NCBI GenBank assembly: GCA_030065235.1
Contig: JASJDC010000006.1
Coordinates: 1 to 32,534, forward strand
Length of the DNA stretch: 32,534 bases
Direction: 5' to 3'
Source of the DNA: Alphaproteobacteria bacterium
GTDB lineage: Bacteria > Pseudomonadota > Alphaproteobacteria > UBA8366 > Aestuariispiraceae
Below, piece after piece: positions 129-10,715 of the stretch; position 1 is the first letter of the stretch, and every line of letters starts with the position of its first letter. The notes beneath the pieces are model-generated. The model saw nothing but the letters and a program-made list of their open reading frames with translations, was not told the origin of the DNA and ran no database searches. The translations under genes were made by a program, and so were the position numbers.

Positions 129-441
129 GTCGTCGCAACCGATCGGTCTTGAGGTCGCGGATCGGTTATAGCCCTGTTCTACCGTTCATCGTTGGGCCTT
201 TCGACCCACGACACATCTAAATCAACCACGGTGGCGGAAGCGCCAACTCGAGAAAATTATCGCGAACTTGACGAAACATTAACGCATTGTCGACGCCAGA
301 CCCATACCGTTCCAGACGGTGATCGTTGGGGAGACGAACATGCTTGCTGAATTGGCTTTGCGCGAATTAGCGAGATCGAATACACTCGGCGCCTACGATG
401 ATAACGGTACTCGGTCTACTACGTTCTGCGGAGGCGTGGTG
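129..441. other. Stretch between the IS end and the regulator gene; no convincing gene
   Basis: No coding region is supported here. A short inverted repeat (ACCGT-TCCAG-ACGGT, about 306-320) and a TTGACG hexamer near 268 could belong to a promoter for the downstream cassette, but neither is decisive. In-frame upstream starts for the regulator exist at GTG 319 and at ATG 340, the latter preceded by GGGGAG, so the coding region could begin inside this stretch. Confidence 0.4.
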
Positions 442-2241
442 ATGGAAGCAGCTGAGTCTGAAGCGTCAGCCGTGAAAATCTTCTTGTTCGGTCCCCTATC
501 AATCGTCGGACCCGCTGGCGATGATCTGACGCCGCGTAATCAAAAGTCGAAAGCCGTGTTGGCGATGCTTGCATTGGCGCCGCGCGGATCCAGGTCGCGC
601 GTTTGGCTGCGAGACAAGCTTTGGAGCGACCGCGCTGAGACACAAGCGTCAGCAAGTCTGCGCCAGGCTTTGCTTGAAATTCGTAAAGCGTTGGGGCCGC
701 GGCTTAAGGATCTCGTTCAAACCAATAAGTACTCGGTGACCTTGGATTTAGATCGCGTGCAAGTGGACGTCATTGAACGCCTCGGCGGAAGAGAGGCGGG
801 CGACCGGACACATGCTGCTGATACAGAAGCGAACTCTGAGCATTTTTTAGAGGGTTTCGATATCTGTGATCCCGAATTCGAGAATTGGCTGACACTAGAG
901 CGTCGTATCTGGGATCAACGCTTTGAGAATATGCTTGGCGGCGGCCCAACCGACAAGGCTATCCAGGCGGCGCAGTTATTCGACCTGACGAGCCCCGGCT
1001 TCTCAAATGAACAAGGCCGGAAGGTCGCCGCCCCAAAACCAACGTCTCCGTCTAAGGTTTCGAGCCAGCAATCAGGGTGGCGGAGAAACAACTGGGCGAT
1101 TGGGGTCCAGTGTTCAGGTGCGCCCGACAGAGCCGATTCAGAGTTCGCGCGGTTGCTTGGAGACAAACTCGCCCGGCATCTTTCTGATATAGCGCGCATC
1201 AAGTCGCTGTGGCTGACGGACGACCCAAAGCTGGCGGAGGGCGTACAGCTGCCTTTGAACGTTCGAATCACAGAGTATAGTCATCAATCTAGCGTGCGAT
1301 TGACTGTTGAAGTCGTGGATTGCACGTCTGGCGTGTCGCTCTGGTCGGCTGGACAGGCGTTCCAGCGGAATCAGTTGGAAGGCCCGCATGCGCCGATATT
1401 GAACGGGCTTGTCTCAAGAGCGGTCATTGAGCTTGGCGCGCATCTTCAGGCGCCGGGTTCGCCGGAAGAGATCGTCTTGGGCGGCCGCCTCATTGAAAGT
1501 GTGAATCGTATTTTCAGTTTGTCCGCGGGCGATTTAGACGAAGCTGAAGCAGCGCTCACCCAGATTCTGAAGGTCAATCCAAGTGCGCAAGCCCATGCAT
1601 GGATGGCGTTCGCCAAGTCATTCAGGGTTGGACAGAGATTTTCACCCGGTACAGCCGAACAGGTTGCAGAGTCTCAGTATCATTCAGCGCGCGCGCTAGA
1701 GACGGATCAATTCGATCCGTTGGTCTTGTCCCTCGCGGCGCATATTCACTCCTATTTGTTTAGTGAATACGATATCGCCGCGTCGCTCTTTGAACGCGCG
1801 CTTCGGACCGACCCGGAGCAAACCATCGGTTGGGATCTGTACGCGATGCTGAACGCCTATACCGGACAGCCGGGGCGGGCCTTGACCATGGCGAGTTGGG
1901 CTCAACACCTGGGCGGCAATACCCCGATAAGCTATTATTTTGATACGACAAACTGCATTGCGGCGACCCTGGCGGGCAACTATCAGCAGGCGGACCAAGT
2001 CGGTAGACAGGCGTTAGTGGCGCGGCCGAATTTCAACACGATCCTGCGTTACCTGATTTCAGCAAACGCCCACCTTGGCAACGTATCCGCGGTCGAAGAT
2101 CTGCGTCAAAAACTTGCCGAGATCGAACCTGATTTCTCAACAGACGTCCTGGCCGCGACGGGTTATCCGGGACTATCGACGGAAGGAGGTCAGCAGTTCC
2201 TTTTGGGACTGAAAAAGGCCGGTCTAGGGCGGCGAAAGTAG
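442..2241 (+). CDS. SARP/BTAD-type transcriptional regulator with TolB-N-like and TPR regions
   Basis: The product is predicted to be a cytoplasmic DNA-binding regulator of about 599 residues. The N-terminal 100 residues start with a VKIFLFGPL strand, then the winged-helix pattern with LRDKLWSDR and SLRQALLEIRKALG, as in OmpR/SARP-type BTAD regulators. LEGFDICDPEFENWL is the typical linker into the BTAD helices. The middle (NWAIGVQCSG to SGVSLWSAGQAFQ) resembles the TolB-N/FlgO-like domain of alphaproteobacterial TPR regulators, and the C-terminal half is TPR-like helices ending FLLGLKKAGL. No membrane segment is seen, unlike CadC-type regulators. I chose ATG 442 because GGAGG lies 7 bases upstream and the conserved domain starts at once; ATG 340 and GTG 319 are alternatives. 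It is first in a run with the PAP2 and subtilase genes and probably controls them, which is inference. Confidence 0.75.
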   Translation: MEAAESEASAVKIFLFGPLSIVGPAGDDLTPRNQKSKAVLAMLALAPRGSRSRVWLRDKLWSDRAETQASASLRQALLEIRKALGPRLKDLVQTNKYSVTLDLDRVQVDVIERLGGREAGDRTHAADTEANSEHFLEGFDICDPEFENWLTLERRIWDQRFENMLGGGPTDKAIQAAQLFDLTSPGFSNEQGRKVAAPKPTSPSKVSSQQSGWRRNNWAIGVQCSGAPDRADSEFARLLGDKLARHLSDIARIKSLWLTDDPKLAEGVQLPLNVRITEYSHQSSVRLTVEVVDCTSGVSLWSAGQAFQRNQLEGPHAPILNGLVSRAVIELGAHLQAPGSPEEIVLGGRLIESVNRIFSLSAGDLDEAEAALTQILKVNPSAQAHAWMAFAKSFRVGQRFSPGTAEQVAESQYHSARALETDQFDPLVLSLAAHIHSYLFSEYDIAASLFERALRTDPEQTIGWDLYAMLNAYTGQPGRALTMASWAQHLGGNTPISYYFDTTNCIAATLAGNYQQADQVGRQALVARPNFNTILRYLISANAHLGNVSAVEDLRQKLAEIEPDFSTDVLAATGYPGLSTEGGQQFLLGLKKAGLGRRK

Positions 2242-2287
2242 AACCAAATCTTGAGCCAGAGGATTCGGCTACTGGAAAGGAAGCGCT

Positions 2288-3247
2288 ATGAACGACACTG
2301 TATATTTGACCAAGAAATGTCGGAGCACGACCGAATTCCTGAATGCTTGCATGATTTTTGTCGAGCGGGGACAACTGGTTTCCGATTCGCTCAGCGACGC
2401 AGCAATAGAGCTAGAAATTCCGCAAGATGACGGCCCGGCGGCGGGCGGCGGCGTCAATTCGGTGCGGACGGTGATGAATAAATCTACGCTCAATAAGTCC
2501 GTTTTGAACAAGAATAAAAATAAGAACAAGAACAAGAACAAGAATAAGAATAAGAACAAGCTGCAGGCGCCGTCCGCTCAAAATGATAGCGGCGGACTGA
2601 TCCCGACCGAGGCGCTATTGCGCCTCCACCGGCTGGGTGCTGAAGACTTATCCAATCGGCTGCCGTCGGAATGGACCAATATTCAGATCCCGCCACCTCC
2701 CGGGCCGGACGAGTCGCGGTTGGAAACATGTCTACTATTGGCGATGCAGGCGAACTTGCGCGAACGGAGCCTGCGCAAAGACGACATCCTCCAAGAAGCG
2801 TCGCTTGACCTCACCGCTTTCACCCGCCCGCTTGGCGTGGATGGGCTGGCTGGCTTCGTTGAAACCGAGGCGCTGTTTCTCGAACTGCTGACCGTCTGCG
2901 AGTATATCGGTCTTTACTACAAGGCGACCTTCGGCCGACTGCGGCCAAATCAGGTCGAACCACGGTTACGGCCTTTGCTGCCAAACCCAGCCCACGAGGC
3001 CTATCCGAGCAATCATTCCTTCCAGTGCCACACGATAGCCTACGCTTTCAACACCATACTGCCAGAGCATCCAGCGACGCAGGTTCTCTCGGACATAGCG
3101 CTGAATGTTGCGCAGAACCGTGAATGGGCGGGATTGCACTATCCAAGCGACACCGCAGCCGGCCGGCTCTTGGCTCGCAAAATGGCCCCGATCCTCGCCG
3201 AGGCGTTTATTGAACGCTTTCACGCAGTTCAGCAGGAATGGATTTAG
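2288..3247 (+). CDS. PAP2-superfamily phosphatase / vanadium haloperoxidase-like protein with Asn-Lys repeat
   Basis: This 319-residue protein has all three PAP2/haloperoxidase motifs in order. Motif one is K212-x6-R219-P. Motif two is PSNHS with Ser241 and His243. Motif three is R278-x5-H284-x3-D288. In this superfamily these residues bind phosphate or vanadate, and the two histidines do the chemistry. The usual glycine of PSGH is Asn242. The C-terminal helical region from about residue 150 is the enzyme core. Residues 1-60 match nothing I recognise and are followed by a low-complexity tract of nine NK dipeptides (74-91). No signal peptide or clear membrane helix is seen, so it looks soluble, unlike lipid-phosphate PAP2 enzymes. 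It lies 46 bases after the regulator and 14 bases before a subtilase gene. Whether it is a phosphatase or a haloperoxidase cannot be decided from sequence. Confidence 0.8.
   Translation: MNDTVYLTKKCRSTTEFLNACMIFVERGQLVSDSLSDAAIELEIPQDDGPAAGGGVNSVRTVMNKSTLNKSVLNKNKNKNKNKNKNKNKNKLQAPSAQNDSGGLIPTEALLRLHRLGAEDLSNRLPSEWTNIQIPPPPGPDESRLETCLLLAMQANLRERSLRKDDILQEASLDLTAFTRPLGVDGLAGFVETEALFLELLTVCEYIGLYYKATFGRLRPNQVEPRLRPLLPNPAHEAYPSNHSFQCHTIAYAFNTILPEHPATQVLSDIALNVAQNREWAGLHYPSDTAAGRLLARKMAPILAEAFIERFHAVQQEWI
2507..2560 (+). repeat. In-frame hexanucleotide repeat coding nine Asn-Lys dipeptides
   Basis: Nine consecutive AAY-AAR units (mostly AACAAG or AATAAG) encode NK repeated nine times inside the PAP2-like gene. 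Two isolated NK pairs lie just upstream (residues 64-65 and 69-70). The unit is 6 bases long, so slippage would change the length of the basic linker without shifting the frame. Third-position variation (AAC/AAT, AAG/AAA) means the tract is not a perfect microsatellite. Confidence 0.9.
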
Positions 3248-3261
3248 GGGAGGAACTTCGA

Positions 3262-4818
3262 ATGACCCATATAGACCCGCGGCGTCCCAGTCCAAGATAC
3301 TATTACCTATGGCATCTCGTTTCATTGGGTGTGATGACGCCAGACCCTTGCGGAGAAGAGCTCAAACAAACAATTTGGGACGAGCTCGCCGATATAGGTG
3401 CGACGTCGCCGTCCACCGTCGTCATGATCGATGTTGGCTGTCGATTTGACCACCCTAACCTGCGCGGACGGGTGGACCATCGCCGGTCGATAGATTTCAG
3501 TATAACGCCGTATGGAACCCGATTTTCCGCCGAAGCGTCGGATCGACCCGCCCCTGTCCCGTCCAATTTCTCCGGGCTGGATTTGAGACGCCTGAACCTC
3601 GATGCGCTCAATTCAGATGATCTGGGCCTGTTGCAAGAGATTGCGCAGGACTTGATTGAATCGAACGGGCTTTGGCGGGGTCATGGCGATGTTGAACGCA
3701 TTTTCTCCAGTCATGGGACCGCCGCCAGCGGCTTAATCGTCGGCGGGCCCGAAATCCTTGGCCCCGAGCAGGAGCCACATGCGGGTGCGATCCCATACTT
3801 TGGCGTCGATCCGTATTCACATCTGATCTCTGTTCGAACCGGCTTCGACGACGACCCGGCCCAGTTTATCTCTGCATTGCTCTATGCTTGGAATCAAACG
3901 GCGGACGTCATTGTTCTGCCGCGCGGCCTGCCTGATCCTGTCGCGAGTTATATGACGCCGAAGGACGATTTTGGCGCAGATCTGGAGCGGTGGGCGAATA
4001 GAGACCACAGCGACTTGCTCGGCCGGATGGAAGCGCTTCAAGCAACCGCTGAAACGGTCAGCCCGTTGCATCCACAGCGTGGCGCCACCAAGGCGCGGCT
4101 ATGGCGTATTCTCAGGCAGATTTTTATCGCGGTATCTAAGCACATTCCGATTGTATGCGCCGCGGGAAATGATGGTGAGAGTCAACTCAACTATCCGGCG
4201 AGCCTCGCCTCGCGAGAGAACGGCGTCATAGCCGTCGGCGCGGTGACTGCGAATGGACTGCGTGCAGGATATTCCAACTACGGCGACGGACTCTCTCTGG
4301 TTGCGCCATCTGATGATATGCAGGTCTTTAACCGCTATCAGTTACGCGATGTCCCCAAGACGCGCGAGCGTTTGAAGTATCTCTGCTCCAACGATGTGCA
4401 ACAATTGGACTACAGCCATCTTGGCCTGCTGACTACCGACATTCCAGGGCGCTTTGGATATGACGCGGGCCGCGCGGCGACGGGGGACCCCGATGATCGG
4501 GCGTCGCCCGAGCCGCAGACTGGTCTATACACCCAGTTTGGCGGCACATCGGGCGCTGCGGCCCTCGTCGCCGGCGTTGTCGCCTTGATACGTCGCGCCG
4601 AACGCGCGCGATCCGCCAAAGGCGAGCCACTGGATGGGTGCGATATCAAAAAGCTTCTGTGTGACACCGCGCGTCAATCTCTACCGTTGATGCAAGACCA
4701 GGCGCCGTTGAAGGGCGACCGCATGAACAGCGCCAGCGAAGACGCCGATACTTTCGAGGCTTTCTTTGGTTGCGGGCTTGTAGACGCCCGCGCCGCGATC
4801 GACGCAATCATACTTTAG
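3262..4818 (+). CDS. S8-family (subtilisin-like) serine peptidase without propeptide
   Basis: This 518-residue protein has the subtilase catalytic set. Asp57 lies in VVMIDVG, followed by HPNLRGRV. His151 lies in SSHGTAASG, oxyanion Asn303 in CAAGNDGES, and Ser430 in GGTSGAAALVAG. These depart from the textbook HGTHVAG and GTSMAAP but keep the key residues. Asp and His are 94 residues apart, against about 32 in subtilisin BPN', so there is a large insertion; another extra segment lies before the Ser box. No signal peptide and no I9-type prodomain precede the catalytic domain. I chose ATG 3262 because AGGGGAGG lies about 8 bases upstream; the ATG at 3238 lies inside the PAP2 gene. It is probably cotranscribed with the two upstream genes and ends at a hairpin at 4843. 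Substrate is unknown. Confidence 0.8.
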   Translation: MTHIDPRRPSPRYYYLWHLVSLGVMTPDPCGEELKQTIWDELADIGATSPSTVVMIDVGCRFDHPNLRGRVDHRRSIDFSITPYGTRFSAEASDRPAPVPSNFSGLDLRRLNLDALNSDDLGLLQEIAQDLIESNGLWRGHGDVERIFSSHGTAASGLIVGGPEILGPEQEPHAGAIPYFGVDPYSHLISVRTGFDDDPAQFISALLYAWNQTADVIVLPRGLPDPVASYMTPKDDFGADLERWANRDHSDLLGRMEALQATAETVSPLHPQRGATKARLWRILRQIFIAVSKHIPIVCAAGNDGESQLNYPASLASRENGVIAVGAVTANGLRAGYSNYGDGLSLVAPSDDMQVFNRYQLRDVPKTRERLKYLCSNDVQQLDYSHLGLLTTDIPGRFGYDAGRAATGDPDDRASPEPQTGLYTQFGGTSGAAALVAGVVALIRRAERARSAKGEPLDGCDIKKLLCDTARQSLPLMQDQAPLKGDRMNSASEDADTFEAFFGCGLVDARAAIDAIIL

Positions 4819-4842
4819 ATCGAATCCTCCCAGCAACTTAGC

Positions 4843-4874
4843 GCCGCCGTGGCTTTTGCTTCGGCGGCTTCTTT
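4843..4874 (+). terminator. Rho-independent terminator after the first subtilase gene
   Basis: GCCGCCG (4843-4849) pairs with CGGCGGC (4862-4868) around a 12-base loop and is followed by TTCTTT. It lies 25 bases after the stop codon. The rest of the 285-base gap before the next gene shows nothing further. Confidence 0.6.
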
Positions 4875-5103
4875 GTGCTTTGCGCGCCAAATTCCTGCCT
4901 CGCTGTCGCGTTCTGACGTCATAATCACGCTGCTTTAGCGCAGTGATGACGGCCGCCGCCGATACTACGCCTGTGTCCTACAACGCGCAGGTGGTTAAAA
5001 ATTCCATCGAAAGTTACAGGTTCCCGGGCCTGCGTATCAGGACGCTTTTCAGAGGGCCTTTCTATTGTCGGTCCATCACCCGAATTCGAGAGAGGATAGT
5101 ATC

Positions 5104-6627
5104 ATGTCAACAACACGGACTCCGCGCCTTGTCATCATGGAAGAGGACCTGTCGGTCGAAGATGCAGGCATCGAACAGATCTCCAGTGTACGCTCCAGCG
5201 TATCGGCGCTCGACGCCGTAGAAACCTTGCTGGGTGTCGAAGAGATCGGAGAGGACAGTGCGCTAATCACTCAGGAGATCAATACGGTCACCGTCGACCT
5301 GACGGACAAGGAAGCCAAGGACTTGGCCAAGAAGTCCGGCGTCGCGGCCGTTGAGGATGATGTTTGGAACCACGCGTCGAATCTCGAACAAGACATCGAC
5401 GCCGACATACCAGACCAAGATCCGGAGGCCGAGGCGGAAATCGACGCCGCGCAGGATTCGCTTCTGTCGGCCGAGTTGGACCCCGACGACGCGATCAAGG
5501 CGGCGGCCGAACGCGCCGGCGCCATCGAAGCGTGCAAGGTCGATGATATTGATTTCGATGAGGCTGGAAACGCCTTCTCTTTTTCGGCCGCCTCCGATCC
5601 GCTCGTCGCAGATACCGCCAGCGCCGCTGGAATCGACAGGGAGAAACTGCTGAAACTCGTTCGCTGCGTCATCAAATGCGCGCTCAGCGAACTAAGCGCC
5701 TCGGAAGCAACCGATGTCGACGAAGAGCTCGTATCCAGGCTTCTAGCCGAAAACGGCGTGTCTGGTAATGACGCTTCGGTACAAGCGATCCGAGACTACA
5801 TTACCTGCGGCCTGCGTGTGATTTATGCGCCGCGCGCCTGGCGTTACTCAACCGGTGCTGGTGTGCGTACAGCGATTATCGATACAGGCATCGCACCGCG
5901 ACACCCGGACTTGAGGGTCTATGGCGGCGCTAGTTTCGTACCCCGTGTTCGGTCGTGGGCGGATGATCATGGCCACGGAACGCATGTGGCCGGCACCGTC
6001 GCGGCCTTAGCCAACAACCGCGGCTTGGTGGGCGTTGCGCCCCATGCTCGGCTTTACGCGGTTAAGGTTCTGAACCGCCAGGGATCGGGTCGGTCCAGCT
6101 GGATCATCAACGGGTTGGTCTGGTGCTATCGAACGCGCATGCACATCGCGAACCTTAGTCTCGGCAGTGGTGTAAACACGCATGATCCGAGGGTCTACAG
6201 CCGCGCCTACGAGCGGGCCGGTCGACTCTTGCGAAATCGAGGCATTCTTGCAATCGCCGCGGCCGGAAACAGCAATGGGCCGGTCGGCAACCCGGCGCGC
6301 TGCCCGTCCTTCATGGCGGTTTCAGCGGTTGACTGCAATCGCCGGCGTGCTTCATTTTCGTGCTTTGGTCCGCAGGTGGAGGTTACAGCTCCAGGCGTCA
6401 ATGTCTGGTCTACCTATCCGCAGACGGGTTACCGCCGCCTAAGCGGCACCTCAATGGCGGCGCCGCATGCCGCCGGGGTCGCCGCACTGATTAAACGACG
6501 GCACCCGTCATGGCATGGCGATCGGATTCGCGTCCATATGTGGCGCACCGCCACTGACCTAGCGCCCAGCGGTCGTGACGTGGCCTATGGCTTTGGCTTG
6601 GTGAATGCGTATCGCGGCGTGCGCTAA
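5104..6627 (+). CDS. S8-family subtilisin-like serine peptidase with I9-like prodomain and acidic linker
   Basis: This 507-residue protein is a more canonical subtilase than its neighbour. Asp260 lies in [15 protein letters not shown], His291 in [14 protein letters not shown], Asn389 in AAAGNSNG, and Ser450 in [18 protein letters not shown]. Residues about 58-90 ([10 protein letters not shown] to VAAVEDD) fit the second half of the ferredoxin-like I9 propeptide that folds and inhibits subtilases. Between it and the catalytic domain is an acidic, Ala-rich segment of about 150 residues with several cysteines, which I do not recognise. There is no signal peptide, so the enzyme may act in the cytoplasm. 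The start at ATG 5104 has GAGAGGA upstream. It is flanked by hairpins at 4843 and 6648, so it is probably its own transcription unit next to the first protease operon. Confidence 0.88.
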
Positions 6628-6647
6628 ACGCCTTTGAACGCAATAGC

Positions 6648-6677
6648 AGGGAGTGGCGAGCCTTCTCGCCACTCCCT
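6648..6677 (+). terminator. Strong hairpin, probable terminator after the second subtilase gene
   Basis: AGGGAGTGGCGAG (6648-6660) pairs perfectly over 13 bases with 6665-6677 around a CCTT loop. The following bases (GACCTTTAA) give only a weak U-tract. It could stop transcription or protect the 3' end of the message. Confidence 0.65.
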
Positions 6678-6797
6678 GACCTTTAAGGCCCAATTCTGTT
6701 AGTGTGGGATATGCGTCGTTCGGGACATGCGCGCGCCGCCAATTTGAGATAAGTCGAATGCGCTGCGCCGGCGGCCGACAACACGGAGAAACTCGAA

Positions 6798-7052
6798 ATG
6801 GACAAGATAGATCAGGCTCTTGCGAAAGCCATTTCCGATCAGCCGTTGGAGCCGGTTCCTGTTCTCATTGCGTGCCGGCATGACTGCGCCAAACTCGCCA
6901 AACGTTTACAGAGTCTCGGTTTGTCGGGATTTCATGTCATCGCCGAACTGAACATAATTTCAGTCACTGTCGCGCCCGATATCCTGCCGCAGATTGATGC
7001 GGACTCCGAGGTCTCTTCCATTGAGTTGGATTCGGAAGTACGGCTGGACTAG
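6798..7052 (+). CDS. Small free-standing I9-like subtilase propeptide/inhibitor
   Basis: This 84-residue soluble protein has the pattern of a subtilisin propeptide (inhibitor I9 fold). A strand PVPVLIACR is followed by a helix DCAKLAKRLQSLG, then ELNIISVTVAP, a second helix, and SEVSSIELDSEVRLD at the end. The middle and end align by eye with the prodomain of the 5104 subtilase (ELNIISV with EINTVTV, EVSSIELD with GVAAVEDD). In the family such domains act as intramolecular chaperones and inhibitors of the peptidase; free-standing ones inhibit in trans. GGAGAAACTCGAA precedes the ATG. The adjacent subtilase at 3262 lacks a prodomain, so this protein could serve it. That pairing is inference. 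No other family comes to mind. Confidence 0.6.
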   Translation: MDKIDQALAKAISDQPLEPVPVLIACRHDCAKLAKRLQSLGLSGFHVIAELNIISVTVAPDILPQIDADSEVSSIELDSEVRLD

Positions 7053-7378: not shown

Positions 7379-7523
7379 TGCTTTCTACGGTGTTCGTTTT
7401 GCGTTCGACTGGCGGAGCCTGATCGGCGAAAGGTGAGGAGGACGGCGAGAAACCGTAGGCTTGGAGATAAACGCGGATCAGTCCGGTATAAGGGCGTTCG
7501 CATTAGATTCCTTGGGAGGAACC

Positions 7524-8618
7524 ATGAAAAATACTGTTGATCGCAGAAATCTTCTGCGCGGCGCGGCGGTTGCCGGCGCTGCAACCCTGGCCACGCCGGC
7601 GATTGCGCAAAACGCGGGGACGACCCTCAAAATGCAAGCCGCCTGGGGCGGCGGGATCTTCCTTGAGAACGCCCAGTCCTTTGCGGCGCGTGTCAATGAA
7701 ATGTCCGGCGGATCGCTGACCATCGACGTGCTGTCGGTCGATGCGGTTGTGAAAACCAGCCAGATGCAAGACGCGGTTCATCGCGGCGTTCTCGACGCGG
7801 CGCATTACGTATCCGCCTATTGGTACGGCAAATCCAAGGCGGCGTCGCTTTTCGGAACGGGCCCTTGCTTCGGTTGGTCGAGCCAGGAAATGCTCGGTTG
7901 GATCTATGCCGGCGGCGGACAAGAGCTCTTCGACGAGTTGATGGAGACGCTGCGTCTGAACGTCGTGTCTTTCTTCAATTCGCCCATGCCGGCGCAGCCG
8001 CTCGGGTGGTTCAATCAGCATATCACGGACGCATCGCAAATGGACGGTCTGAAGTACCGGACTGTTGGTCTTGCGGCGGACGTCTTGCTGGAAATGGGTA
8101 TGTCCGTCGTTCAGTTGCCCGGCGGTGAGATCCAGCCCGCGATGAAGTCCGGCCTGATTGACGCGGCCGAGTTCAACAACCCGACGTCGGATCGGGATTT
8201 TGGTATGCAGGACGTCTCGAAGCATTACCACCTGGCGTCGTACCACCAGAGCCAGGAGTGCTTTGAGGTCACCTTCAACAAGGACAAGTTCAACGCATTG
8301 TCGCCTGAACATCAGGCGATTATTCGCAACGCATCCATGGCCGAGAATTCAGGCTTCTATTGGAACAACACCAAGCGGTACTCCGACGACCTGGTCAAGC
8401 TGCAAGAACAAGACGGGGTGAATGTCTACCGCACGCCGGATTCGGTGATGGCGGCCCAACTTGCGGCGTGGGATGTGGTTACGGAGCGGATCGCGTCAGA
8501 AGATCCGTTCTTCGCCAAGGTGATGGAATCGCAGAAGACGTACGCCCGGAATGTGATGGGTTATCTGAACCTGAACCAGCCTGACTACCAACTGGCCTAC
8601 AACCACTATTTCAGTTGA
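7524..8618 (+). CDS. dctP: TRAP transporter solute-binding protein, DctP family
   Basis: This 364-residue periplasmic binding protein captures the substrate of a secondary TRAP importer. The N-terminus has a twin-arginine signal (DRRNLLRGAAVAGA, then ATPAIAQ and the likely cleavage site), so export is by Tat. The mature part has the DctP layout, including GLKYRTVGLAADVL, where the conserved arginine normally binds the substrate carboxylate, and GEIQPAMKSGLIDAAEFNNP. The latter region resembles the TakP-like subgroup that binds 2-oxo or hydroxy acids. ATG 7524 has GGGAGGA 4 bases upstream. It is followed by a hairpin and then the two membrane subunits. The actual substrate is unknown; the amidase downstream suggests an amide-containing organic acid. 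Confidence 0.9.
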   Translation: MKNTVDRRNLLRGAAVAGAATLATPAIAQNAGTTLKMQAAWGGGIFLENAQSFAARVNEMSGGSLTIDVLSVDAVVKTSQMQDAVHRGVLDAAHYVSAYWYGKSKAASLFGTGPCFGWSSQEMLGWIYAGGGQELFDELMETLRLNVVSFFNSPMPAQPLGWFNQHITDASQMDGLKYRTVGLAADVLLEMGMSVVQLPGGEIQPAMKSGLIDAAEFNNPTSDRDFGMQDVSKHYHLASYHQSQECFEVTFNKDKFNALSPEHQAIIRNASMAENSGFYWNNTKRYSDDLVKLQEQDGVNVYRTPDSVMAAQLAAWDVVTERIASEDPFFAKVMESQKTYARNVMGYLNLNQPDYQLAYNHYFS

Positions 8619-8639
8619 TCTGTCGGCAAGCCGAGTATT

Positions 8640-8670
8640 GTCCGGGTGCCGAATAGGCATCCGGACTTTT
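8640..8670 (+). terminator. Intercistronic hairpin between dctP and dctQ
   Basis: GTCCGGGTGCC (8640-8650) pairs with GGCATCCGGAC (8656-8666) over 11 bases including one G-U pair, with a GAATA loop and TTTT after it. It lies 21 bases after the dctP stop. It probably gives partial termination or 3'-end protection so that the binding protein is made in excess over the membrane subunits. Confidence 0.65.
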
Positions 8671-8727
8671 ACTGCTCTAGGGACGATCGTCAGCGACCCG
8701 CCGCTCTGTTAAGGAGAAAGCAGGTAC

Positions 8728-9318
8728 ATGAAACTCGTTCACGCCATCGAAGGGTTGAGTTTGTGGGTTGGCCGCGCCTTTGGCTGGTGCATCCTCATCC
8801 TTACGCTCTCGGTCTGTTACGAAGTGTTTGTCCGCTACGTTCTCAACGCGCCCACCGTTTGGGCGTTCGATATGATGATCCAAATGTATGGCGCGCTGTT
8901 CTTGATGTGCGGCGCCTATGCTTTGGCTCAAGATACCCATGTGCGGGCGGATGTGGTGTATCGTTTGCTGCCTATCAAGGTTCAGGCAGGCCTCGATTTT
9001 GTGCTGTACTTTCTGTTCTTCTTCCCCGGCGTTCTCGCCTTGGCCTGGTATGGGTACGAAATCGCTTCTGACAGCTGGCGGTACAAGGAAGTCAGCTTTA
9101 ACAGTCCCGCCAGCATCCAGATATACTTCTTTAAATCGTTAATCCCGTTGGCGGGCGGAATCTTGATGGTCCAGGGTTTTGCCGAATTGATCCGCTGCGT
9201 CATGGCGATGCGGACCGGCGCATGGCCCGAGCGGCTGGTCGATGTCAAAGAGACCGAGGATCTTCTGTCCGAAGCGGATATCGAAACGATCAACGCCATC
9301 ATTCCAGGAAAGAAATAG
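8728..9318 (+). CDS. dctQ: TRAP transporter small membrane subunit, DctQ family
   Basis: This inner-membrane protein of 196 residues has four predicted hydrophobic helices (about 15-35, 50-70, 88-110 and 132-155). The N-terminal part reads EVFVRYVLNAPTVWAFD, the usual DctQ motif with R-Y and a following W near the second helix. DctQ partners with DctM to form the membrane complex, which takes up substrate using the sodium or proton gradient. The C-terminus is longer than average and acidic (VKETEDLLSEADIETI). AAGGAG lies 11 bases before ATG 8728. The gap to dctM is only 29 bases, so the two are surely cotranscribed. Confidence 0.9.
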   Translation: MKLVHAIEGLSLWVGRAFGWCILILTLSVCYEVFVRYVLNAPTVWAFDMMIQMYGALFLMCGAYALAQDTHVRADVVYRLLPIKVQAGLDFVLYFLFFFPGVLALAWYGYEIASDSWRYKEVSFNSPASIQIYFFKSLIPLAGGILMVQGFAELIRCVMAMRTGAWPERLVDVKETEDLLSEADIETINAIIPGKK

Positions 9319-9347
9319 GCCGTACGGCGCTTCAAGAAAGACAAGAG

Positions 9348-10715
9348 ATGACGAACCCCGAAGTCGCCCTGTTCATGTTGGGGCTGTTCATTGTCCTGGT
9401 GCTGCTGGGATTTCCGATCGCTTTCACGCTGCTCGCAATGGGCGTGGGCTTTGGATACTACGCGTATCATCAGGGCCAGCCGATTGAGAGCTTCAGCGAT
9501 ATCTTCAACAACAATATTTTCTATTTGCTGAACCAGAACACCTATTCGGTGATGGAGAATCCGACTTTGGTCGCGATCCCGCTATTCCTGTTTATGGGAT
9601 ATGTGGTCGAGCGCGCCAACATCGTCGATAAGCTGTTCTTTTCCCTTTACATGGCCGCGCGAAATCTGCCGGGGAGCCTTGCGATCGCAGCCCTTGTGAC
9701 CTGTACGGTGTTCTCCACGGCCTCGGGTATTGTGGGTGCGGTCGTCACGCTGATGGGGCTGCTGGCCTTCCCGGCGATGGCCAACGCCCGATACAATAAG
9801 AGCTTTGCGTCGGGCGTCATCTGCGCCGGCGGCACATTGGGCATTTTGATCCCGCCCTCGATCATGCTCATCGTCTATTCGGCGATCGCCGATCTTTCCC
9901 CTTTGCGCCTGTACGCCGCCGCTGTCTTTCCCGGCTTGCTGCTGGCGGGGCTCTACATCGTCTATGTGATCGTGCGCGTCTGGTTCAATCCGGCGCTCGC
10001 GCCAAAACCAGTGATGGAAAACGTCCCCCCGCCACGCGAAATCTACTGGAACCTGCTGGTCAGCTTTGTGCCGTTGACGGTCCTGATCGCTCTGGTGCTG
10101 GGGTCGATCCTGGGCGGGCTCGCGACCCCGGCCGAAGCCGCCGCGATGGGGGCGATGGGCGGCATCGTCTTGGCGATCTTCTACCGATCGTTGACATGGA
10201 CCAAACTCAAGGAAAGCGTCTTTCTGACGGCCAAATCAACGGCGATGGTGTGTTGGCTTTTCGTCGGCTCATGGACCTTTGCGTCTGTCTTCTCGTATCT
10301 CGGAGGACATGACATCATCGCCGAGTGGGTCGGTGGGATGGCGTTAGAGCCCTGGCAGTTCCTTGTGTTGGCTCAGCTGATCATCTTCTTGTTGGGCTGG
10401 CCGTTGGAATGGTCGGAGATCCTGATCATCTTCGTTCCGATTTTCCTACCGCTGCTCGACGTGTTCGGCGTGAACCCTTACTTCTTTGCAATGCTGGTGG
10501 CGCTGAATCTGCAAACCTCGTTCCTGACGCCGCCCATGGCCATGTCGGCTTACTATCTGAAAGGCGTGCTCAAGAGACAGATCGAGTTGATGGAGATTTT
10601 CCGCGGCATCATGCCGTATCTGGGGATCGTGATCTTGACGATGGTCTTGATGTATCAGTTCCCCCGCATTGCGTTGTGGTTCCCCGATTATCTCTTCGGT
10701 GTCTATATTCCGTGA
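9348..10715 (+). CDS. dctM: TRAP transporter large permease subunit, DctM family
   Basis: This 455-residue polytopic membrane protein carries the transport pathway. Hallmarks include VLLGFPIAFTLLAMG in the first helix, the conserved segment around FSTASGIVGAVVTLMG, CAGGTLGILIPPSIMLIVYS, and LGGLATPAEAAAMGAMG. A terminal LQTSFLTPPMAMSAYYL region is also typical of the family. The protein is slightly longer than the common length of about 425 because of a loop near residues 40-60. ATG 9348 follows a weak AAGAG-type ribosome site. It overlaps the next gene by 4 bases if that gene starts at GTG 10712. It works with the dctP and dctQ products. Confidence 0.92.
   Translation: MTNPEVALFMLGLFIVLVLLGFPIAFTLLAMGVGFGYYAYHQGQPIESFSDIFNNNIFYLLNQNTYSVMENPTLVAIPLFLFMGYVVERANIVDKLFFSLYMAARNLPGSLAIAALVTCTVFSTASGIVGAVVTLMGLLAFPAMANARYNKSFASGVICAGGTLGILIPPSIMLIVYSAIADLSPLRLYAAAVFPGLLLAGLYIVYVIVRVWFNPALAPKPVMENVPPPREIYWNLLVSFVPLTVLIALVLGSILGGLATPAEAAAMGAMGGIVLAIFYRSLTWTKLKESVFLTAKSTAMVCWLFVGSWTFASVFSYLGGHDIIAEWVGGMALEPWQFLVLAQLIIFLLGWPLEWSEILIIFVPIFLPLLDVFGVNPYFFAMLVALNLQTSFLTPPMAMSAYYLKGVLKRQIELMEIFRGIMPYLGIVILTMVLMYQFPRIALWFPDYLFGVYIP

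Follow-up and report, generated by a model that had tools for sequence, protein, structure and literature searches.

The enzymes of the PAP2 superfamily share the signature KX6RP - PSxH - RX5HX3D, and the class A acid phosphatases, among them PhoN and the protein of Protein Data Bank (PDB) entry 7f17, display the same K/RP/SxH/R/H/D residues. Regulators that bring an output domain together with TPR repeats include SARP/AfsR proteins and the class III cyclase-TPR regulators, RRNPP proteins typify peptide-TPR signalling, and the S8 subtilases and A4 peptidases (the latter presumably identical to the G1 glutamic peptidases) form separate Pfam families. Parts resembling these meet near the start of a 32,534-nucleotide stretch of alphaproteobacterial DNA from the Aestuariispiraceae (GCA_030065235.1, contig JASJDC010000006.1, positions 1 to 32,534; hereafter the window), where a TPR regulator, a PAP2-fold enzyme bearing a perfect tandem (Asn-Lys)9 array in its N-terminal part and an S8 subtilase (S8A) are encoded one after another. 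The combination of regulator, PAP2 enzyme and peptidase is a solidly conserved module that is apparently undescribed in bacteria; no paper on it was found in the open-access full-text literature, a body that leaves most subscription papers and all preprints outside.

The module PAP2 enzyme differs from the class A acid phosphatases, its closest solved relatives, by its array, by the lack of a visible signal peptide, by a C-terminal Glu-Trp pair that is invariant in 19/19 aligned rows, and by being encoded with a regulator and a peptidase. The window regulator is weakly similar to the SARP/AfsR proteins, but the related TPR part is here joined to either of two outputs, a winged helix or a nucleotidyl cyclase, and lies beside the gene of the array-bearing enzyme; in the module at locus L047 a protein with a Pfam cyclase domain and TPR repeats, as in the class III regulators, takes the regulator's place. 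The peptidases have catalytic residues like those of their Pfam families, with the mycosin, PrtP and PatA models as the S8 comparators, whereas S8A departs from known S8 enzymes in that its NCBIfam matches all fall far under cut-off, no propeptide or signal peptide is seen, and it is tied to a PAP2 gene. The likeness to RRNPP systems is that a TPR regulator is encoded next to a peptidase and to a gene that could supply short peptides; the difference is that no small pheromone gene was seen here, that an enzyme's tail would provide the peptide and that TPR-peptide binding is putative.

A first-pass annotation had described five adjacent plus-strand genes as one candidate cassette composed of a BTAD/TPR regulator, a PAP2/haloperoxidase-fold enzyme, two subtilases and a free I9-like inhibitor, and had proposed as a check the co-occurrence of the PAP2 gene with S8 and BTAD-regulator genes in other genomes. 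The adjacency of the five genes was confirmed, as was the absence of a signal peptide visible by eye in any of them, an absence extending to the PAP2, S8 and A4 module proteins inspected elsewhere. Co-occurrence was borne out for the first three genes. A scan of bacterial genomes for the PAP2 protein returned at least 14 loci in Rhodobacterales and Hyphomicrobiales, and in 14/14 relatives from other genera, among the matches listed, the regulator lies 5' and S8A 3' of the PAP2 gene. The search pattern contained NKNKNKNK, which biases these 14 loci (together with L020-L022 the 17 near loci considered below) in favour of the array. A PAP2-domain profile built from 19 aligned domains with the array left out avoids this bias; it was run against 398 genomes of the phylum and 385 of the class. 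At a cut-off of 130 bits (the next place below scored 111) it found 34 places, in 22/398 phylum and 13/385 class genomes, of which two (G437 and G643) do not belong to the class of the window; 13 places were seeds of the profile and 21 were new. A regulator of the same family lies within 122 bases of the PAP2 gene, or overlaps it, in 20 of the 21 new places, the exception being L131, where the distance is about 2 kb. An S8 gene likewise follows or faces the PAP2 gene in 20/21, firmly in 19 and weakly in L131, where a purpose-built profile gave a weak match and Pfam none at E <= 0.01. Over all 34 places an S8 or A4 peptidase is found near the PAP2 gene in 32, two of these (L131 and L049) by purpose-built profile only; the 13 seeds contribute S8 in 7 (L049 included) and A4 in 5, with none in L048. 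By comparison, 11 PAP2 loci under the cut-off, one of them a plasmid match (L026) and together read as a partial set of controls, contained neither array nor S8/A4 peptidase nor C-terminal Glu-Trp (0/11 for each), and one, L054, has a weak regulator-type neighbour.

The fourth and fifth genes of the supposed cassette, a second subtilase (S8B) and an open reading frame (ORF) of 84 amino acids, were rejected as members, since neither travels with the other three. Neither had a match at E <= 1e-3 in the 14 listed loci or in the three added plasmid loci. Homologues of the 84-amino-acid protein at E <= 0.001 were confined to its own genome among 337 class genomes searched, and a search of 72,556 plasmid records gave none at E <= 0.01; S8B matches at E <= 1e-60 were likewise confined to the own genome among 42 genomes of the order, and its plasmid matches all share less than 60% identity, with no place spanning 80% of S8B. 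Nor is the inhibitor label supported by the searches made, as the small protein has no Pfam or NCBIfam family match and no BLASTP similarity to S8B, while S8B has a sub-threshold I9 match (E 0.075) within its own N-terminus. Subtilase genes do lie divergently 5' of the regulator in L049 and L053, and beside the PAP2 gene in L128, which would make S8B a conceivable additional peptidase of the module, though 0/17 near loci have it; the L049 subtilase was found with a purpose-built profile made from S8B and the L128 enzyme, the ORFs of L049 sent to Pfam having been others.

The module ranges over Rhodobacterales, Hyphomicrobiales and other genomes belonging to the same class and phylum as the window, and it also sits on plasmids of plant symbionts. 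The trio stands on named plasmid records of Aliiroseovarius (M344), R. johnstonii (pRL12), Sinorhizobium (B11), Palleronia (THAF1) and Phyllobacterium zundukense, and on a Phaeobacter inhibens plasmid with very divergent PAP2 and S8 members; in all, 99 plasmid records match, 63 of them from Rhizobium. Within the window's own order 2/43 genomes match at E <= 1e-10, its own and one other, much weaker, a sparse presence that fits horizontal gain without proving it. The window's genome holds a second copy (G000:C2, L135:6977-12531), with a divergent winged-helix regulator, a PAP2 enzyme with (NGG)15 and a divergent S8 peptidase.

The key feature of the module, on which the first-pass annotation did not remark, is the peptide array. 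The window and its 17 near loci (14 of them found with the NK-containing pattern) all carry Asn-Lys arrays, and Palleronia has an Asn-Arg array. More distant PAP2 genes were read in 18 regions taken from a sample of 385 class genomes: wherever a regulator lies next door (12/12) the enzyme has an array of another unit, namely NTG, GNA, TSN, EGGG, DGM, DAR, SGV, NSF, NAE or GGF, and the remaining 6/18, which include L054, have none. All 21 new places from the profile without array carry an N-terminal tandem array; the units of the family also include AGR, NGG, SGA, NAD, TGV, AGV and GSF. The array of L129 is partly imperfect and that of L132 is a degenerate Gly-Leu tract. By a fixed-threshold test applied to 65 loci (1.14 Mb), arrays were scored in 52/65 PAP2 genes (the 54 family members read plus the 11 controls) against 0/823 other gene proxies; two family members, L011 with (NK)4 and L048 with (EGGG)3, fall below the threshold. 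A looser scan in all frames also picked up the arrays in antisense and, in L026, an unrelated ORF with NSSS x3. The array begins 1-12 residues after a Met in 27/33 members outside the NK group. The PAP2 gene of L132 (L132:7752-9227) is an outlier with a long degenerate Gly-Leu-rich stretch and no peptidase found nearby.

The codons of the arrays tell a different story from their peptides. Between adjacent units of 54 arrays, identical codons number 379 against 446.5 expected when synonymous codons are shuffled within arrays (Z -4.9), and the 33 non-NK arrays alone give Z -4.8, values to be taken only as a guide since related loci are not independent. Codons are alike between adjacent units in 5/42 comparisons for SGA x15, 1/15 for GNA x6 and 2/18 for DAR x7, although some arrays show the opposite trend (NAD 14/20, EGGG 8/8). 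Synonymous change thus appears saturated, judging from these sequences, while the array peptide is intact. Scrambled codons under an intact peptide indicate that the array is conserved as a peptide and not as a DNA repeat, which argues that it is functional, and perfect peptides with randomised codons are not explained by slippage alone. None of the 18 NK sequences holds an interrupted array. A third-position count for the NK arrays (0 transversions vs 215 transitions) was set aside as circular, the arrays having been cut out as pure NK runs.

The unit itself changes at least 25 times on a tree of 47 PAP2 domains, for which unit labels were assigned by hand and the near-duplicate NK loci L006, L009, L013, L015, L021, L022 and L024 were dropped; its deep order is unsure, with long branches for L048, L128, L131 and L132. 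In one well-supported clade (L117, L062, L133, L058, L025) the neighbouring units GGF, GSF and NSF occur, and in another (L124, L126) TGV and AGV, in each case with every copy changed, so that the unit seems to evolve in concert. Six genomes (G000, G135, G292, G370, G418 and G729) have two places each, and the units differ in 6/6. A repeat that must be perfect and yet may consist of very different units is an unusual protein segment.

The catalytic K/RP/SxH/R/H/D residues of PAP2 are invariant in 19/19 aligned family rows, and the family fits the acid-phosphatase-like signature (invariant K, RP, S, H, R, H and D; PF01569); the C-terminal Glu-Trp was not found in 4/54 members (L119, L120, L130 and L131). 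Against solved structures the profile matches 7f17 (E 1e-23) and PhoN (2a96, E 2e-15) better than bromoperoxidase (1qi9, E 5e-11). The PAP2 assignment of the first-pass annotation stands, and a phosphatase activity may be inferred; the comparison favours the acid phosphatases over the haloperoxidase alternative, though not decisively, since bromoperoxidases match as well. The two subtilases of that annotation were correctly recognized, with PF00082 matches in both, and the columns with D, H and S are invariant in 44/44 aligned module S8 enzymes.

For the regulator, the TPR half of the earlier label holds, the TPR model lying above the Pfam cut-off. The BTAD half is weaker, as Trans_reg_C matches at E 0.018, no BTAD model was listed in the Pfam search, and among solved structures the SARP AfsR matches best, over residues 43-169 (E 4.5e-4); "SARP/BTAD-like" is consequently a fair but weak description. 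For the middle region a single, sub-threshold FlgO match was obtained, in the relative L121. Across the tree the N-terminal output of the regulator switches between winged helix and nucleotidyl cyclase at least 5 times (L131 left out of the count), and the peptidase class between S8 and A4 at least twice (L048, L049, L053 and L132 left out, the S8 enzymes of L049 and L053 having been found afterwards). The output assignments rest on Pfam for the cyclase of L047 and on weak Trans_reg_C matches for L131, L135 and the window, while all others come from iterated purpose-built profiles; the regulators of L062 and L025 match both output probes and were scored as winged helix. What stays constant is the regulator's TPR half together with the array-bearing PAP2 enzyme.

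A constant TPR half with exchangeable outputs has the look of a sensor, and a repetitive, unit-homogeneous tail beside a neighbouring peptidase hints at processing and reading of that tail. Units that are identical and change in concert point in turn to recognition or regular packing, and away from a mere low-complexity spacer. We tentatively propose, as a possibility that falls short of an even chance, that the three genes form one copy of a module, probably cytosolic as judged from the missing signal peptides, in which the peptidase cuts the array and the TPR regulator reads it. The peptidase would cut within the array or at its junction with the folded domain, and the array, attached or cut, would be the ligand of the TPR part, such that proteolysis of the tail sets the output of the regulator, either DNA binding or cyclic-nucleotide synthesis. 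All units of one array would need to be alike so that every register or fragment gives the same reading, and different units would keep separate copies within one cell apart. More doubtful is the broader proposal that this represents a new principle of bacterial signalling, with an exchangeable repetitive tail on an enzyme, whose exact unit serves as a lineage-specific identity tag processed and read by a cognate peptidase and TPR receptor; such a tag would change in concert across all copies while their codons are kept different from each other. The module makes the reading of repetitive peptides a question that can be tested.

Several observations weigh against cutting and reading of the array, both of which are steps that we infer. 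Units of 2-3 residues would make poor specific ligands. In the NK clade the array is not N-terminal but comes tens of residues into the longest frame, counted from its first Met (73 residues for the window), and NK arrays taken alone give a codon test that is not significant (Z -1.5). The paired copies of the six two-copy genomes come mostly from different clades, so that their differing units may reflect descent instead of insulation. No peptidase was detected at 2/34 places (L048, with a transposase nearby, and L132), and elsewhere the peptidase gene is sometimes convergent or divergent and outside the operon (L049, L053, L123 and L130), a placement that does not imply the cutting of this particular substrate. 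An AlphaFold model of the PAP2 protein from a 15-row alignment had a mean pLDDT (predicted local distance difference test score) of 39.5 and was unusable.

Foremost among other explanations, and itself rather improbable, is that the array is a structural tail through which the PAP2 enzyme assembles with itself into a fibre, a condensate or a polyproline-II-type bundle, the peptidase removing the tail and thereby dissolving the assembly. Perfect repetition would then be needed for packing, and differing repeats would separate two assemblies in one cell, as the six two-module genomes with their different units would allow. The perfect, peptide-conserved periodicity, mostly of 3 residues outside the NK clade and often rich in G, N, S or A, suits such a tail, as does its usual position there, just after a Met; but the units may be hydrophobic (GGF), basic (NK, NR, AGR), mixed in charge (DAR) or acidic (NAE), and no single assembly chemistry fits them all.

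Low-complexity sequence is known as a processing signal in NF-kB and in Caulobacter DnaX, and the array could similarly act as a brake at which an ATP-dependent protease stalls before the PAP2 domain, leaving a processed phosphatase to survive, with low complexity itself under selection. The array does precede a folded domain and its composition varies freely, yet a mixed tract would suffice for this purpose, whereas most arrays consist of identical copies whose unit changes in concert. The conserved peptidase next door would also have no part to play, and this explanation is considered unlikely.

Tailoring of a ribosomally synthesized and post-translationally modified peptide (RiPP), in which the regulator, the PAP2 enzyme and a leader peptidase would mature a peptide encoded nearby, is less likely again. 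A gene belonging to one homologous cluster lies downstream of the module in 8/17 near loci; in L021 and L022 it is annotated as 'HEXXH motif-containing putative peptide modification protein' and a ThiF gene comes after it, and L017 adds a radical SAM protein and a 110-amino-acid ORF that could be a RiPP precursor. No member of that cluster turned up in the remaining 9 near loci or within the window's initial 13.5 kb, Pfam gives no match for the L022 protein, and no conserved precursor gene was seen; the neighbours point to a possible peptide context but are not constant.

The first-pass annotation had raised a suicide or defence role, and an abortive or anti-phage protease circuit, for which no positive evidence emerged, is judged similarly remote. 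A regulated protease without a signal peptide, the patchy distribution and the many plasmids would agree with it, but the three module genes have no PADLOC match at E <= 0.001, the PADLOC matches of S8B and one related S8 are to subtilase or IetS models, and the annotated flanks of the module loci read hold mostly metabolic, transport, secretion and replication genes and no named defence gene. Least credible, to the point of being very improbable, is that the arrays are functionless mutational noise left by replication slippage near gene starts, for although many units are one-step relatives, a new unit probably begins by expansion and a few arrays such as NAD and EGGG have rather alike codons, synonymous codons are overall at least as mixed as random under a perfect peptide, the arrays mark 21/21 new PAP2 genes and none of the other gene proxies, and arrays decaying by non-synonymous change at the synonymous rate were not seen among 54 members.

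Features of the window and of the HEXXH regions at three near loci (coordinates refer to the window unless a locus is named)
Feature	Coordinates	Strand	Evidence or remark
Regulator (REG)	319..2241 (GTG start) or from ATG 442 (residue 42)	+	Pfam TPR, weak Trans_reg_C; AfsR match
REG layout			SARP/OmpR-type winged helix, middle region (putatively FlgO/TolB-N-like), TPR
rPAP2, PAP2-fold, class A acid-phosphatase-like, with N-terminal peptide array	2288..3247	+	PF01569 E 1.2e-8
Tandem array region MNKSTLNKSVLNK(NK)n	2474..2560	+	uninterrupted (Asn-Lys)9 at 2507-2560
Subtilase S8A, last gene of the trio	3238..4818	+	PF00082 E 2.3e-21
Subtilase S8B, neighbour, no conserved module part	5104..6627	+	PF00082 E 4.4e-58
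84-amino-acid ORF, first labelled I9-like, no conserved module part	6798..7052	+	
HEXXH region, L021	12850-15236		
HEXXH region, L022	12832-15560		
HEXXH region, L017	10581-14380		

Regarding the gene boundaries, homology to the regulator begins at residue 36-53 in 11/14 relatives listed and at 4, 24 and 26 in the other three, which makes the start at 442 plausible, though not proven. S8A as called starts 10 bases upstream of the end of the PAP2 gene and overlaps its stop codon. Public annotation places the PAP2 start at L020:10142 and L021:10067, about 25 residues before the NK array and downstream of a partly conserved stretch. In Aliiroseovarius the region 5' of the module encodes type I secretion in divergent orientation (L020:2292-6938; L006 and L007 have homologues), and on the Palleronia plasmid (L023:8503-12260) a haem peroxidase, an animal haem peroxidase by Pfam, and a C1 peptidase come next after the module. 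The window itself continues after the five genes with the TRAP transporter genes DctP, DctQ and DctM (7461-10715, by Pfam), which belong to ordinary metabolism.

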